48,510 nt of DNA from a virus. Positions 6,380 to 39,265 of this stretch are shown piece by piece. The position numbers were made by a program, and so were the translations under genes. The notes beneath the pieces are model-generated. The model did no database searches. It worked only from the letters and a program-made list of their open reading frames with translations, and had not been told where the DNA came from. The DNA lies in IMG/VR virus record IMGVR_UViG_3300006802_000144, positions 1 to 48,510 of that record. The stretch is one strand, 5' to 3'. Positions within the stretch are counted from its first letter, which is position 1. Each line of letters begins with the position of its first letter.

Positions 6380-6721
6380 ATGCCGCGTTATCGCTTTTCC
6401 GAAACGGTTGTCTACAAGTCCGGCAACCCATGGCCAACGTATGAGGCTGGCAGAGTCTATGACCTGTCGGCGGATTTCGGTGAGCGTTGGGTGCGCCGCA
6501 GTGTGGCGACGGTGGATGATGGCGATGGCGCGGCGTTGCCTGATCCTCGGTTCCCGGTGGCGGTGACGGAGACCGTTGCCGACTTGGCGGCGGGGATAAC
6601 CGAGGCCGTGAAATCGGGTGAGAAGTCGATCAATCAGGCGCGGGAGGAATTGGGAATGCCTCCCATCGCCCCCGCGGTTGAACGCACAACCCGCCCCTAT
6701 CGGACGCGGGGTGGCGCATGA
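6380..6721 (+). CDS. Hypothetical head-region protein
   Basis: 113 aa, ATG after GGGGGA. The N-terminus MPRYRFSETVVYKSG and AGRVYDLSADFGERWVRRSVA suggest a small beta domain; the C-terminal half (VADLAAGITEAVKSG, INQAREELGM) is helical and the tail is basic (TRPYRTRGGA). The gene overlaps the next start in ATGA. Proteins of this size after the capsid gene are often minor head proteins, but nothing seen here proves it. Confidence 0.65.
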   Translation: MPRYRFSETVVYKSGNPWPTYEAGRVYDLSADFGERWVRRSVATVDDGDGAALPDPRFPVAVTETVADLAAGITEAVKSGEKSINQAREELGMPPIAPAVERTTRPYRTRGGA

Positions 6722-7380
6722 ATAACCACTGGCTAGAACAACCGAACGGCGCCCGCATCCACGCCACGGCGGTTGTCGGTATGCAGCCCTTCGCGGGCAA
6801 AGCATTCGCCCGCCCGACCGTGGAACAGGCCCCGCCAGTCATCGGCGCCAACGCCCTGATCGGACCCGGCGCCATCATCTACGCGGGCGCCACCATCGGC
6901 GACGACACCCAAGTCTGCCCGCAAGCGCACATCCGCGAGGGTGCGGTCATTGGCCAGCGGTGCGTCATCGGCGTTGGCGTTCGGATCGGATATGACGCCG
7001 TGATTGGCGACGACGTGCAAATCATGGACGATACCCACGTTTCCGGCGGCACTCGGATCGGTTCCGGCACGTTCGTTTCGGTTCATGTCGCCATGGTGAA
7101 CGACGATCGCCCGGCCGGGTATGTGTGGAAGGGTGTGACGCCGGTCACTGTCGGTCGCGGTTGCGTGATCGGATGCGGCGCGAAGCTGCGGCCGGGTGTG
7201 ACGATTGGCGATGGTGCGACGGTGGGTATGGGGGCCGTGGTGACGCGGGATGTTCCTGCGGGGGCTACGGTTAAGGGGATGCCGGCTCGGGTAACGGAAC
7301 TCTTCCAACGCGAATTGGAAAAGCCAAGCCCCTACGCAACCGCTCTGGCGGACGGCACCGCTTACGAGAATTACCCTTGA
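6718..7380 (+). CDS. Left-handed beta-helix acyltransferase (WlbB/WbpD-like)
   Basis: 220 aa dominated by hexapeptide repeats: IGANALIGPGAIIYAGATIG, VIGQRCVIGVGVRIG and VIGDDVQIMD, a left-handed parallel beta-helix from about residue 40 to 190. The loop AMVNDDRPAGY and the C-terminal VGMGAVVTRDVPAGATVKGMPARV match the NDxxPR and GxGxVVTkDVpxxaxVxGxPAR pattern of sugar-nucleotide N-acyltransferases (WlbB, WbpD, QdtC types). Such enzymes acetylate amino sugars used in surface glycans. It is the first gene of a three-gene sugar cassette sitting inside the head operon, and each gene overlaps the next. Substrate unknown. A role in modifying virion or host glycans is inferred. Confidence 0.85.
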   Translation: MNNHWLEQPNGARIHATAVVGMQPFAGKAFARPTVEQAPPVIGANALIGPGAIIYAGATIGDDTQVCPQAHIREGAVIGQRCVIGVGVRIGYDAVIGDDVQIMDDTHVSGGTRIGSGTFVSVHVAMVNDDRPAGYVWKGVTPVTVGRGCVIGCGAKLRPGVTIGDGATVGMGAVVTRDVPAGATVKGMPARVTELFQRELEKPSPYATALADGTAYENYP

Positions 7381-32437: not shown

Positions 32438-33021
32438 GGGGCGCCTCCGATTAGGGCCATGATGGCGTCGATGGTGCGGGCGCATGGGCACCTATCGGGA
32501 GCGCAGCAGTCCCCAGCATTGGCGGCGCAATCCGTGTATGGACCATTCGTAACCACCCGCATCACCGCCTCCCGCGTCACCGCCGGCCGGGCGGGATAGG
32601 CACGGACTGGCACCATATCCCCCGGCAGTGGCATCCACCCGGTCACGTCCACGTCTGGCACATCACGCCCCATACCAACGGCAGTGACGTGCCAGCGCGG
32701 AGGCAAGTCCAACCCCGGCGACATATCGACAACACGGATCGCGCGGTAAATCCCGGGGCCGTAGTGTTCGGCGTGTGGAATGCGGACAAGGATGGACTTG
32801 TTCGGCGGTGCTGTTTCCGGCGGCTGCCACGACCGCGCAGCCTCCAACGCCGTCAGATACACCAACAAATCCGCAGCCTCCTCCCGCGCGTGCCGCACCA
32901 GCGCAGCCGGCGACAAAGCCGCATCCGCCAGCGTGTGGCCGTATTTCTCGACGCCCATGACGGCGCGGGTGGTGATGAACTCGGCGGCGGATCGGGCGTG
33001 GGGGCAGGGGTTGGCGGTCAT
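32434..33021 (-). CDS. MazG-like plus DUF551-like fusion protein
   Basis: 195 aa. N-terminal ~60 residues contain RAVMGVEKYGHTLADAALSP and VRHAREEAADLLVYLTALEA, the E-E-x-x-D pattern of all-alpha NTP pyrophosphatases (MazG-like), which hydrolyse NTP/dNTPs. Then WQPPETAPPNKSILVRI and DVDVTGWMPLPG match the DUF551 domain that is common in phages. The last 40 residues contain a Cys cluster (YTDCAANAGDCCAPDRCPCA) that might bind metal. The assignment of MazG is moderate since only part of the motif set is visible. Confidence 0.68.
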   Translation of the reverse strand: MTANPCPHARSAAEFITTRAVMGVEKYGHTLADAALSPAALVRHAREEAADLLVYLTALEAARSWQPPETAPPNKSILVRIPHAEHYGPGIYRAIRVVDMSPGLDLPPRWHVTAVGMGRDVPDVDVTGWMPLPGDMVPVRAYPARPAVTREAVMRVVTNGPYTDCAANAGDCCAPDRCPCARTIDAIMALIGGAP

Positions 33022-33485
33022 GCCGCAGCCCCCTGAACAGTCTCAACAACCTGCTTGATCTGGTCGCTAATGCAATCAATCTGATCTTCGATGCCGAGGG
33101 CCATCGCTACTGCCCGCGCCCGCTTGAGCGCCGACGCCGCACGGGAAAACTCCGCAATCACGACTTCCCGGCTCTTGTCTTCGTCCGACGCAACTTGTCG
33201 GATCGACATGTAGCCCTGCTCCCCACGATCGCAGGCCGGATCATGCACGAATGCGGGAACCCGCACGCTATGTTCCATGGTCGTGACCTCCACCCGAACC
33301 GACCGGATCAGATGGCGGGCCTGTTCCACGCGGAACATATGAGCCGCCGCGTCGTTGTCCCACTCGAAACACTTATGCAGCGGGGATGCTTCGTTTTGCG
33401 CCGCGTCAACCACATTGTCAGGCGTCAACCGCCCTTCGTTCGCCTCCGCAAGCCGCGTCAGTTCCGTGATGATGTCTTCGCTCAT
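33018..33485 (-). CDS. Hypothetical helical early protein
   Basis: 155 aa from ATG 33485 with GAGGAATG upstream. Helical and acidic: MSEDIITELTRLAEANEGRL, AAHMFRVEQARHLIRSVRVE, EFSRAASALKRARAVAMALG. It follows the 5-nt-period array and a 9-bp hairpin (33504-33525) that precedes its ribosome site. Position suggests it is part of the recombination or early-control block. No family recognised. Confidence 0.62.
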   Translation of the reverse strand: MSEDIITELTRLAEANEGRLTPDNVVDAAQNEASPLHKCFEWDNDAAAHMFRVEQARHLIRSVRVEVTTMEHSVRVPAFVHDPACDRGEQGYMSIRQVASDEDKSREVVIAEFSRAASALKRARAVAMALGIEDQIDCISDQIKQVVETVQGAAA

Positions 33486-33503
33486 TTTGCATTCCTCAAA
33501 GGT

Positions 33504-33525
33504 GGCGGGGGATTGCTCCCCCGCC
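33504..33525. terminator. Perfect 9-bp hairpin before the 33485 gene
   Basis: GGCGGGGGA (33504-33512) and TCCCCCGCC (33517-33525) form a perfect stem with a TTGC loop. On the plus strand GTTTT follows; on the minus (transcribed) strand the T-run is absent (ACCTTTG). It could attenuate leftward transcription or stabilise mRNA 5' ends of the distal half. Its function is uncertain. Confidence 0.5.
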
Positions 33526-33529
33526 GTTT

Positions 33530-33800
33530 TGATGGCTTGACCCACCGTGCCCCGTATTGGCGCGCCAACCCATGGCTAGACCGCCATGCCCGGACAGACC
33601 CGACCAGGACAGACCCCAACCGGCCGCGCCAGGCCATGACCGCCCGGCCATGCCTCGACGGACCTTGTTCCGCCGTGTCTTCCCTCGACCGCCACACCCG
33701 GTCCGGCCGAGCCAGACCATGGCTTACCCGACCATGACTTGACCGCCATCCCATACCGCATCCGGACACGCCAGGCCGTGCCTGATCTTTCCTTGACCGC
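33530..33800 (-). repeat. Degenerate pentanucleotide (5-nt period) array, non-coding
   Basis: This 335-bp gap between two genes holds an imperfect array with 5-nt period, best read on the minus strand as NNGGY units: atggc-ctggc-gcggc-cggtt-ggggt-ctgtc-ctggt-cgggt and so on. Since 5 is not a multiple of 3, the reading frame cycles and gives meaningless Arg/Trp/Gly-rich ORFs. It lies directly 3' of the recombination-associated gene at 33820. Such arrays near phage recombination genes might be recombination or annealing targets; I know no proven function. Confidence 0.6.
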
Positions 33801-33819
33801 CCAACCGTGACATCCACTT

Positions 33820-34623
33820 TCACGCCGCCTTGCGCTTGCGTGTCGCCGTATCATTCGCCGGCGCCTTGTCGTCATCCCGCTTGGCCAGTTCCTTCGTGAA
33901 CCAATCAAGCAGTTCTTCCGTGTCCCAATCATACGGCTCGCACGCTTCAAGTCCGGCGTCCTGTGCATCGCGGCCGCATTCGGAAACAATCCGCAGGAAG
34001 TCGGGATCAGTCGCATCCACGAGCCGGAACTGCCCGAACGATCCCTTGCCCTTTTCCTGCCGGAAGTCGCCTACGCCAGCCGTGATGCCAGCCGCCGCCA
34101 TCAGGTTCCCGATCGCCTTCGCTTGCAGCTTGGGCTTAACAAACCGGATGGTCACGGAACATGCCCACTCGGCAACGATTGCGCGGGTGCGAATGTCCGG
34201 CGTCTTGTTGATGTCCGCCGATCGGACCACCGACATGAGCAGCTTGGGAACGCCGTAGACATCGACGTATTCCCCTTGCACCCACACCAGCCGGCCGATT
34301 TCCGATTTTTTCGTGCCCGGAAGGTCCAACGCTGCGGTGGCCATCGCGCCCTTGAACGCAGGGGCCGGCAGTTTCAGCCGGGTTTTCGGCGCGTCACCGA
34401 CGTTGCGATACACGCTGTTCCGGTATTCCTCGGTCGGGTTGTGCTTGAGACTGGCCGCGCGGTCGGCGGTGCTTTTGCGGCCCTTTGGCATAAGCAGTTC
34501 CCGCTTTGCCTTCTCGGCCATGCGGTTGAAGATCAGCGGGGAGTTGCCGATCACGCAGAACGTGACCATGCCCTCACTGATTTCTAGAACTGAGATTTCT
34601 TCCGTCGTCGGTTTCATAGCCAT
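33820..34623 (-). CDS. Recombination-locus protein, RAMP-like features, unknown
   Basis: 267 aa with GGGAGA upstream. VTFCVIGNSPLIFNRMAEKA, EYRNSVYRNVGDAPKTRLKL PAPAFKGAMATAALDL, ADINKTPDIRTRAIVAEW and NLMAAAGITAGVGDFRQEKG KGSFGQFRLV are the most conserved-looking segments. A phage family with this layout (N-terminal sPLIfNrw, PaxgFKxAm, a final GvGdxRpEKg.gsFGxF loop) occurs beside SSB-like and exonuclease genes. The closing G-rich loop resembles the one in Cas7/RAMP RRM-fold proteins. A nucleic-acid binding or annealing role is inferred; no enzyme motif is present. Basic tail TRKRKAA. Confidence 0.6.
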   Translation of the reverse strand: MAMKPTTEEISVLEISEGMVTFCVIGNSPLIFNRMAEKAKRELLMPKGRKSTADRAASLKHNPTEEYRNSVYRNVGDAPKTRLKLPAPAFKGAMATAALDLPGTKKSEIGRLVWVQGEYVDVYGVPKLLMSVVRSADINKTPDIRTRAIVAEWACSVTIRFVKPKLQAKAIGNLMAAAGITAGVGDFRQEKGKGSFGQFRLVDATDPDFLRIVSECGRDAQDAGLEACEPYDWDTEELLDWFTKELAKRDDDKAPANDTATRKRKAA

Positions 34624-34653
34624 TTCGTTATCTCCCGATCATCTGTTGATGTA

Positions 34654-35337
34654 TTACGCATCCGGCCCCGGCCATCCATCGTCATCCCCACCCGTCGCGG
34701 TCGGGTCCTCGGCCGGCGGGGCGGTGCGGGTAAGCGCGGCGGTGACGTTCGCATCCATGGCCGTGCGATCGTCCTCCGAAAGAGACGCCATGCCCTTGCC
34801 CACGCGATCCATGCTCAGGATGGCATCGACTGCGGTGCGATCGGGGGCGGCGGCAAGGGCAGATGCAAGAGCCTCGATGAACTGCCCCTTAGTTCGGGCG
34901 GTCTCAAGCGTCGGCGGATCGGCTGGCTTCTCCGGTTCGGGCTTGGCGATCTTCAACGGATGAACCTGATGAATGATCCGCTTGGTCTTCGTCTCGGCCA
35001 GTGCAAGCGCCATCGGACTGGAAAGGCCGGTCATGTTTGAAATGCGGATGCCGCCGACTTCCATGCCGCCCCACTTAACCTTGGGGTCGCCGTAGAGTGT
35101 CATGGAGTGTCCGACGAATGCCTTGCTGTCCGATCCCCACACCTTGACCATGACTTTCGACATGGACTTGCACTGGCGATAGACCTTGCCGCTGCCCTCG
35201 AACGAAATCGACACGGGCTGTTCGGCGCCTTGCTTCACGTTTACTCCGGTGATCGTGATGGTGATCGGTCCGGAGATCAGGTCTTCGTAGTTGATCTGGT
35301 CACTTTTCGGGACAATGACGGATGACATGTCACCCAT
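34654..35337 (-). CDS. Probable ssDNA-binding / recombination partner protein
   Basis: 227 aa. DQINYEDLISGPITITITGV, EQPVSISFEGSGKVYRQCKS MSKVMVKVWGSDSKAFVGHSMTLY and VKWGGMEVGGIRISNMTG form the OB-like beta core of a phage family regularly encoded next to YqaJ exonuclease. An acidic C-terminal end (TATGGDDDGWPGPDA) is like the tails of ssDNA-binding proteins that recruit partners. The gene starts inside the exonuclease stop (TAATG), so the two are co-translated. The SSB-type role is inferred from context and tail. Confidence 0.68.
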   Translation of the reverse strand: MGDMSSVIVPKSDQINYEDLISGPITITITGVNVKQGAEQPVSISFEGSGKVYRQCKSMSKVMVKVWGSDSKAFVGHSMTLYGDPKVKWGGMEVGGIRISNMTGLSSPMALALAETKTKRIIHQVHPLKIAKPEPEKPADPPTLETARTKGQFIEALASALAAAPDRTAVDAILSMDRVGKGMASLSEDDRTAMDANVTAALTRTAPPAEDPTATGGDDDGWPGPDA

Positions 35338-36014
35338 TAGAATATCTCCTGTCGGTCTTTGCGTTCGGTGGGGATCAGGCGGGCGCTGGATGCAAGCGTG
35401 TCCCGGTATTGTGCGACCCGCAGCGCAACCCGTTCCTCGAATGCCGTTGCAGCCTCGACAATCGCAGCTTGCACCTTTTCATCTGGCAGAACCCGCAGCG
35501 TGACCATCGGCAGGCCGCCGCTGTAGCTGATGAAGTCGCACCATGCCCGCTCGGTCACGAGAAGCAGGGTTTGCACCTGTATCCAGTAGTCGTCGGGCAT
35601 GGCGAGTGATGCGAGGGTTTCGATTTGGTATTTCTGCCGCCGGCTCTTGCACTCAATCAGACCGTCATCACCGACTAGGCCATCGGGCGAACCGCCGATC
35701 GTGAAGCCCCAGCGGTCGTTGGTTATGAAGCCCATATGCTCAACCGGCGCGTAATGCTCGTGATACAGGGCGCGGGCATCAACCTCATCCTCCATGCCGC
35801 GCAGCATGTCGTCACCGATGTAGGACGGCTCGACGTAACGGGTGATCCGCTGGGATGCCAGTTCCCAGACGTGCGCGCGTTCCTTGTCGTTGTTCGCGAC
35901 CTTGAGGGTGGGGGTGATGATTAGCTTCATTTCGCTGGCCGTCAGAAGCCCGCAGCGTGCCGCAAGCCATGCCTCGGTGCCTTGGATCAGATCGGGGTGA
36001 TAGGTGATTGTCAT
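35337..36014 (-). CDS. YqaJ-family exonuclease (viral recombinase)
   Basis: 225 aa from ATG 36014. Lambda-exo-like 5'-3' exonuclease for homologous recombination. Visible motifs: LIQGTEAWLAARCGLLTASE (QGTxxWlxaRxGxlTAS), then GGSPDGLVGDDGLIECKS with catalytic D111, E121, K123 (PD-(D/E)xK) and PDDYWIQVQTLLLVTERAWC D (xYxxQvQxqLlvTgrxwcd). Its product would feed the adjacent SSB/annealing-type proteins. Upstream frame from 36065 lacks a good start. Confidence 0.92.
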   Translation of the reverse strand: MTITYHPDLIQGTEAWLAARCGLLTASEMKLIITPTLKVANNDKERAHVWELASQRITRYVEPSYIGDDMLRGMEDEVDARALYHEHYAPVEHMGFITNDRWGFTIGGSPDGLVGDDGLIECKSRRQKYQIETLASLAMPDDYWIQVQTLLLVTERAWCDFISYSGGLPMVTLRVLPDEKVQAAIVEAATAFEERVALRVAQYRDTLASSARLIPTERKDRQEIF

Positions 36015-36024
36015 CGTTCCGCCC

Positions 36025-38379: not shown

Positions 38380-38591
38380 GACCGCGCCTCCCGGGACAGA
38401 CGCAACCGTTCATCCGCCGCGACCATGCGCCGGCCGATTTCGGCGCCGGTCGCGTCCAGCCAGGCAAGCATGGCCGGCGTGATGGGGGCAAAGCCTCGGC
38501 CGGACGGGGCGCGGTCGCGGTCGGCCTCGTGTTCCATGTAGTGGTGGCGGTCGGTGCCGCTGTCGGTGGGGTAGATGCTGAGGTTGGGCAT
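38376..38591 (-). CDS. Small hypothetical protein
   Basis: 71 aa, MPNLSIYPTDSGTDRHHYME, acidic-to-basic, ending AEIGRRMVAADERLRLSREA. TPAMLAWLDATGAEIGRRMV looks like a helix pair. TGATG overlap with the pentapeptide gene upstream. Unassigned. Confidence 0.57.
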   Translation of the reverse strand: MPNLSIYPTDSGTDRHHYMEHEADRDRAPSGRGFAPITPAMLAWLDATGAEIGRRMVAADERLRLSREARS

Positions 38592-39265
38592 CACACGCCC
38601 TCCACTTCCGCCGTATCGACGCCGCGCGCATCGGAGGCCGCGAGGCACAGGATTGCGGTTTTGTGCCGATCCCAGAACCGCCGGGCGCGGGTGCCATCCA
38701 TGCGGGCAATGCGCTCGTTGTCGAACGCTTGCCATTCCGCAATGGAGTGCAGTTCGCAGCCGATCTTGATGTGGTTATCGAAGATCAATACCGGGTATGA
38801 CAGACCAAGGATTTGCAGTGGCGGGCGGGTGATCGTGATGTCGTCACCGATCTTGGCGCCGGCCAGATAGGCGCCGGCCAGATAGGCGCCGGCCAGATTG
38901 GCGCCGGCCAGATTGGCGTCGGCCAGATTGGCGCCGTCCAGATTGGCGCGGGCCAGATAGGCGTCGGCCAGATAGGCGTCGGCCAGATAGGCGCCGGCCA
39001 GATAGGCGCCGGCCAGATTGGCGCGGGCCAGATTGGCGCGGGCCAGATAGGCGTCGGCCAGATTGGCGCCGGCCAGATTGGCGTCGGCCAGATTGGCGCG
39101 GGCTTTGACGGCCTTTTTGACGGCCCAGCCCAGTTTAAACTGCACGGACATGCCGAGGAATTCGGCGGACAGCTCGCATTCGAAAATGACCGCATCGGTC
39201 CAGCGGTTTCGGATTTGGATGCGCTCGGGGGTGGTGGGGGTGGGGGGCATCGGGGTGGTTCCCAT
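38591..39265 (-). CDS. Pentapeptide-repeat protein, first gene of PL operon
   Basis: 224 aa. Between ~55 and 137 the protein is a run of A(N/Y)LA(D/G/R) pentapeptides, which fold into a right-handed quadrilateral beta-helix. N-terminal ~50 aa and C-terminal ~85 aa (PVLIFDNHIKIGCELHSIAE WQAFDNERIARMDGTRARRF W) flank it as in other phage pentapeptide proteins. Some family members (MfpA, Qnr) mimic DNA and bind gyrase; whether this one does is unknown. It lies right behind PL, so it would be among the first products. Start ATG 39265 has a very short leader from the predicted PL; ATG 39250 is an alternative. Confidence 0.82.
   Translation of the reverse strand: MGTTPMPPTPTTPERIQIRNRWTDAVIFECELSAEFLGMSVQFKLGWAVKKAVKARANLADANLAGANLADAYLARANLARANLAGAYLAGAYLADAYLADAYLARANLDGANLADANLAGANLAGAYLAGAYLAGAKIGDDITITRPPLQILGLSYPVLIFDNHIKIGCELHSIAEWQAFDNERIARMDGTRARRFWDRHKTAILCLAASDARGVDTAEVEGV
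38856..39095. repeat. 16 tandem 15-bp repeats inside the pentapeptide gene
   Basis: Sixteen consecutive 15-bp units of consensus GCGCCGGCCAGAT(A/T)G (plus strand), differing at only 3-4 positions, encode the pentapeptide coil. Uniformity at the DNA level suggests recent expansion and possible length variation between isolates. In-frame slippage keeps the protein fold. Confidence 0.9.

Follow-up and report, generated by a model that had tools for sequence, protein, structure and literature searches.

A predicted VIPR locus on a tailed phage or provirus with a guide that matches a Sak4-like gene of other viral contigs

Results

We analysed the 48,510-nt viral record IMGVR_UViG_3300006802_000144 of IMG/VR over its whole length (hereafter the window), in which three adjacent minus-strand open reading frames (ORFs) encode a YqaJ nuclease, an SSB-like protein and a 267-aa protein that carries the glycine-rich sequence GVGDFRQEKGKGSFGQF (Table 1). 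An earlier note on this DNA read the three as a recombination trio and proposed that the 267-aa protein, to which it ascribed a possible RAMP fold with a loop like that of Cas7/RAMP RRM proteins, could be an unrecognised single-strand annealing protein or a nucleic-acid filament protein. The three ORFs are in the ORF list where that note had placed them; downstream of the 267-aa gene we find in addition a repeat array and a small accessory gene, and the region 33018-34623 is with high probability a Viral Interference Programmable Repeat (VIPR) locus, on a tailed phage or provirus. Such systems are related to CRISPR; a phage encodes them, and RNA guides direct their interference. As described in the preprint that reported the kind in 2026 (PMC13142463; bioRxiv 2026.04.26.720920), a VIPR comprises the RAMP effector gene vipr, an accessory gene vap and guide RNAs (vrRNAs) built of GGY/NN repeats, which read DNA with a one-base skip; seven types (I-VII) and vap1-6 have been published, with experiments mainly on SUSP1-like and Pseudomonas fulva loci (PMC13142463).

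Table 1. Features of the predicted VIPR locus and of the two genes upstream of it (positions in the window).
Feature	Position	Strand	Description
vap (putative)	33018..33485	-	155-aa all-helical accessory protein, ATG at 33485
Array 3' end	33504..33546	-	two hairpins
vrRNA array (predicted)	33537..33826	-	tandem GGY/NN pentanucleotides
Guide unit E	33537..33581	-	last, degenerate; NN = TA AT TT GC AA GG AC ...; too short for searching
Guide unit D	33582..33640	-	NN = AT CT GC CG GG CT CT CG CT CG AT; predicted target small ORF beside DUF2924/serine-recombinase module
Guide unit C	33641..33689	-	NN = GA AA AC GG AA CC GA AT CG; predicted target Sak4-like gene
Guide unit B	33690..33743	-	NN = AA AT CG AA AT CT TC CG CG GT; no target found
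Guide unit A	33744..33797	-	NN = AA AA CA AC CT GT CG GC AT AT; no target found
vipr	33820..34623	-	267-aa RAMP-fold effector (predicted); RRM core ~16-202, G-loop 183-197, helical C-terminal extension ~203-252
SSB-like protein	34654-35337	-	PHROG 11517, function unknown
YqaJ nuclease	35337-36020	-	Pfam YqaJ E 6e-13; PHROG exonuclease E 1e-25

Neither Pfam nor NCBIfam returned a family for the 267-aa protein, and its only PHROG match was PHROG 4652 (function unknown), which gives it no annotated PHROG name either. An AlphaFold2 model built on a 40-row alignment (pLDDT 88.4, pTM 0.82) has an RRM-like order of strands and helices with the G-loop preceding the last strand, and in a fold search of the PDB all 50 listed matches were CRISPR RAMP subunits, namely backbone subunits of Csm and Cmr, type VII and gRAMP/Cas7-11 (best E 2.5e-5; TM 0.3-0.5; ~10% identity). 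The structure prediction and fold search suggested earlier have thus been run, and they support both the RRM/RAMP fold, with RAMPs the only matches among those listed, and the analogy of the G-loop to that of Cas7. The loop itself is real, as its motif GxGDxRxxKGxGxxG is invariant in an alignment of 40 homologues, in which nine residues (G179, G183, G185, D186, R188, K191, G192, G194 and G197) never change. Moreover, a profile of the protein matched a single entry among the PDB sequences, 36pp_D, ‘SUSP1 Vipr protein’ (E 1.2e-5), picked agp039 in the genome record of Escherichia phage SUSP1, and aligned with agp039 over residues 144-201 in hhalign (probability 96.5%, E 9e-10). We also considered SUSP1 agp112/agp113 as its Vipr/Vap and rejected them; the SUSP1 Vipr is agp039. 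Judged by its sequence profile and modelled fold, the window protein is a single-RRM RAMP with a G-loop, homologous to known Vipr, and the idea of a filament protein survives only in the sense that RAMPs, as a family, would line up along a guide RNA.

A 274-nt gap downstream of vipr, missed in the earlier note, is filled with GGY/NN repeats. They form a 290-nt array immediately 3' of vipr in which each unit starts with GTC and finishes with a 4-nt GGCG, which makes the frame slip by one base at every unit boundary; in a survey of 7998 repeat units GGCG followed by GTC was also the commonest boundary. Published vrRNAs have 9-16 GGY/NN pentanucleotide repeats and lie beside vipr (PMC13142463), and units A-D of the window hold 9-11 full pentamers each, on a scaffold looser than GGY alone (GGY, GTY, GAY, GCY). 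Of 100 homologous loci, 95 have an array of this kind next to vipr (80 loci sampled from IMG/VR and 16 from bacterial genomes; array and partner counts are over 100 loci, window included). In the same survey the two NN positions had entropies of 1.97 and 1.99 bits (maximum 2) versus 0.41, 1.24 and 1.34 for the scaffold positions, values that for the scaffold are partly set by the scoring itself. No segment of comparable array score turned up in Markov-shuffled loci, and as a positive control our scanner recovered the four published SUSP1 vrRNAs, one upstream and three downstream of vipr. A search of Rfam gave no match. The array ends in two hairpins, one at 33546-33531 and one, GGCGGGGGA-GCAA-TCCCCCGCC, at 33525-33504 (folding z -2.6), both of which are also present in the closely related locus L004; they are candidates for an array tail or terminator.

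Nearly all arrays lay on the strand of vipr (116 of 119) and within 2.5 kb of it (118 of 119), the sole distant segment being the run at 38861-39105 (+) of the window. We rejected this second high-scoring GGY-like run as an array, as it is a coding repeat of a pentapeptide-repeat protein (38591-39265, minus strand). The repeats of this coding sequence are 15 nt long and look like a GGY-type array when scanned for in a simple way.

We then scanned IMG/VR for exact matches to the specified bases of the guides. Guide C specifies 18 bases and, by the published 1-nt-skip rule, has exact matches in at least 120 contigs. Among the matches listed, all 120 sites fall in one gene and one frame with the skipped bases at the third, wobble position of the codon, and all 120 ORFs match a Sak4 reference. 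The gene belongs to PHROG 124, ‘Sak4-like ssDNA annealing protein’ (E 1e-41), and to Pfam AAA_24, and the site comprises the codons for [DE]KTGKPD[IM]R. At a 2-nt skip guide C had only four matches in IMG/VR, all unrelated. For guide D (18 bases) we found 62 matches in IMG/VR, of which 44 fall within a single small ORF. It carries the motif CD[IL]LARGLLRLR, belongs to no Pfam or PHROG family and immediately precedes a DUF2924 gene and a serine recombinase. The predicted targets of the window thus show the reading characteristic of VIPR, in which the single skipped bases coincide with wobble positions. The target family of guide D (L224, L223, L244 and others) is a conserved ORF of 60-90 aa with the sequence PPHLREVCD[IL]LARGLLRLRSR.

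These matches also bear on whether the guides are aimed outward. RNA-guided repression could serve any gene, and guides A and B have no assigned target, so the VIPR might be used internally, its guides regulating genes of the phage itself or of its host instead of those of rival phages. The window, however, has no Sak4 and no self-target, none of its guides matching it well (best 15/20, 14/20, 13/18 and 16/22), and the genes that guides C and D do match lie on other viral contigs. Guides A and B had no match with at most one mismatch in 385 genomes from the same class as the Pararhodobacter genome that carries locus L094. We regard internal use as unlikely.

Support for the Sak4 site comes also from four other, diverged loci, as seen when we ran the whole set of guides with 9-16 units (452 in all) against the target contigs. 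The guides of L035, L036 and L091 match the same Sak4 stretch as guide C, but their registers are displaced by one to three codons, and they run past guide C into the following Sak4 codons; L035 and L036 differ by a single NN base, a difference that reads as Val versus Ile in the Sak4 target. A second Sak4 site, KxVWFVGIL, is matched by a guide of L043, even the best match having one mismatch. In this run there were no matches at skips 0 and 3, and at skip 2 only the four control contigs matched; guides with permuted NN pairs gave one match in 904 trials and guides in reversed order gave none.

Locus L004 is 96% identical to the window in Vipr and 81% identical in Vap, yet most of its guide units differ. 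It keeps every NN pair of guide C despite two changed scaffold bases (AAC to CGC), and it has a unit related to guide D with different NN pairs, which has 19 matches; only four of the 19 lie in the same small gene as the guide D target, making its target less sure. This contrast between close relatives looks like block renewal of guides with selection on the NN pairs, as we infer from the two loci. It also speaks to the suggestion that the array is decayed or purely structural, such as an array of DNA-binding sites, and no source of guides: the window's units are indeed less regular than those of its relatives (several GTC, GAC or GCC units and one AAC unit), but the NN pairs of guide C have stayed the same while the scaffold around them changed, and guides C and D retain exact matches in conserved genes. 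We consider a decayed or structural repeat very improbable.

Which genes travel with vipr decides on the proposed trio. A profile of the putative Vap found a homologue in 95/100 loci, among them all 60 whose flanks reach 3 kb or more in both directions, and in named phages separate searches for vipr and vap gave equal counts (27 Mycobacterium and 5 Gordonia records each), whereas YqaJ was in reach in only 5/100 loci and the SSB-like protein in 4/100. The lasting partner of vipr is therefore the downstream gene vap and neither YqaJ nor the SSB-like protein, and with YqaJ in so few loci the trio is a chance neighbourhood. The Vap model is all-helical (pLDDT 91.5), and a fold search with it returned nothing below E 0.001 and no solved relative.

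The annealing-protein reading, by which the 267-aa protein would be a novel single-strand annealing protein working with YqaJ and the SSB-like protein, draws on its position beside these genes on one strand and on the fact that RAMP/RRM folds bind nucleic acid. The genes for the phage annealing proteins RecT, Erf, Sak and Sak4 likewise belong to phage early regions near an exonuclease. However, Vipr has no sequence match to these proteins, and Sak4, itself unrelated to Vipr, figures here as the predicted target of guide C. The conserved pairing with an exonuclease expected of an annealing protein is lacking across the 100 loci (YqaJ in five), a partner analysis that led us to reject this reading. 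Homology to Vipr, the GGY/NN array alongside (as in 95 loci) and the tie to vap also contradict it, and Donkeykong gp49, a homologue, occurs in a mycobacteriophage annotated with an annealing protein of its own. We give it next to no credence.

Pfam and PHROGs confirm the YqaJ nuclease. The SSB-like protein is a better candidate than Vipr for the single-stranded-DNA-binding or annealing partner of YqaJ, and the two are likely a recombination pair, a separate module that happens to lie upstream, since the family of PHROG 11517 (184 phage records) adjoins exonuclease genes in Arthrobacter and Synechococcus phages.

Discussion

Our analysis establishes the fold and homology of Vipr, the array, a conserved partner gene and target matches that obey the 1-nt-skip rule. 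Similar to the VIPR of SUSP1 as described in the preprint (PMC13142463), the window has a phage-borne RAMP-fold Vipr with a G-loop, an accessory gene alongside and an intergenic GGY/NN guide array on the strand of vipr, and its predicted targets obey the 1-nt-skip rule with the skips on wobble bases. Several observations nevertheless weigh against the assignment to VIPR. The window Vipr is ~70 aa longer than that of SUSP1, and the sequence match between the two lies for the most part in residues 144-201, the RRM's second half. No relation could be detected between the window Vap and the gene beside SUSP1 vipr, and the window array lacks an invariant tail on each unit and has a single pair of hairpins at its end, its units abutting with the one-base frame slip whereas those of SUSP1 end in a shared tail. 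Guide A had no exact match in IMG/VR as a 20-mer or 16-mer, nor did guide B as an 18-mer. The target contig set was itself collected with guides C and D, so that independent evidence there comes from other loci's guides alone. Finally, when the 452 guides were run on 1 Mb of sequence from the VIPR loci, no targets appeared at skips 1, 2 or 3 and one match at skip 0, in a set that is too small.

Considering the unrelated Vap, the apparent lack of the invariant tail and the longer Vipr, we place the locus in VIPR as a new member, outside the SUSP1 type that was tested experimentally. Its predicted targets, Sak4 and a recombinase-linked gene, also differ from the satellite phage reported as the SUSP1 target. 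The abutting array with its one-base slip may be the staggered form of the preprint, and may already be described there, since it mentions ‘staggered arrays with overlapping vrRNAs’ (PMC13142463). Compared with CRISPR systems, Vipr resembles the type III backbone subunits Csm3/Cas7 in its RRM fold and G-loop, and presumably in lining up along a guide RNA, but unlike them the window Vipr is a single small protein, with TM and identity as low as given above. Class 1 CRISPR-Cas does not describe the locus, as Pfam and PHROGs gave no cas assignment in the neighbouring ORFs and a GGY/NN array takes the place of a CRISPR array.

By analogy with the SUSP1 work in the preprint, RNA processing, assembly of a ribonucleoprotein, DNA binding, repression and phage interference might be expected here too. 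Transcription of the array that follows vipr would yield the guide RNAs, and Vipr would bind or coat them. A guide would be a chain of ~9-11 GGY/NN pentamers in which GGY serves as the scaffold and the NN pairs read the duplex DNA target, passing over one base between one pair and the next. Guide C would be aimed at the Sak4-like annealing-protein gene of other phages and guide D at the small gene beside the serine recombinase. Binding may keep these genes from being transcribed, which would put competing phages at a disadvantage, and Vap may assist on the DNA.

Although the VIPR kind itself is already known, a Sak4 target hotspot is new relative to the main text of the preprint, which makes no mention of Sak4 or annealing (PMC13142463). 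We lean, by a modest degree, towards the Sak4 gene being a shared target hotspot of this VIPR clade, struck independently by diverged phages in differing registers, with guides following target alleles (e.g. Ile/Val) and units turning over as blocks between close relatives. If true, the hotspot and the block turnover would amount to spacer-like renewal in a phage-borne system with no known acquisition machinery. The locus was found blind, from a loop motif. Its natural target sites, at least 120 within a single gene family, support the VIPR guide code for a clade that is distant, and it points to a concrete conflict in which a phage with YqaJ/SSB-like recombination genes of its own carries a guide matching a recombination gene of others. 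On the contig of L088, a Maricaulis metagenome-assembled genome, a Sak4-like gene (6428-7246) lies just upstream of vipr, the array region being lost at the contig end.

Relatives of the locus occur in cultured Mycobacterium and Gordonia phages, so that both the mechanism and the gain of guides should be amenable to laboratory strains. In fact ~32 named actinophage records hold a short Vipr homologue annotated as hypothetical. In the cultured actinophages, namely Gordonia phages Pipp and ODay and Mycobacterium phage Donkeykong (L001, L002 and L003) together with ~30 related records, both vipr and vap are annotated as hypothetical, and regular GGC/NN arrays fill gaps beside vipr.
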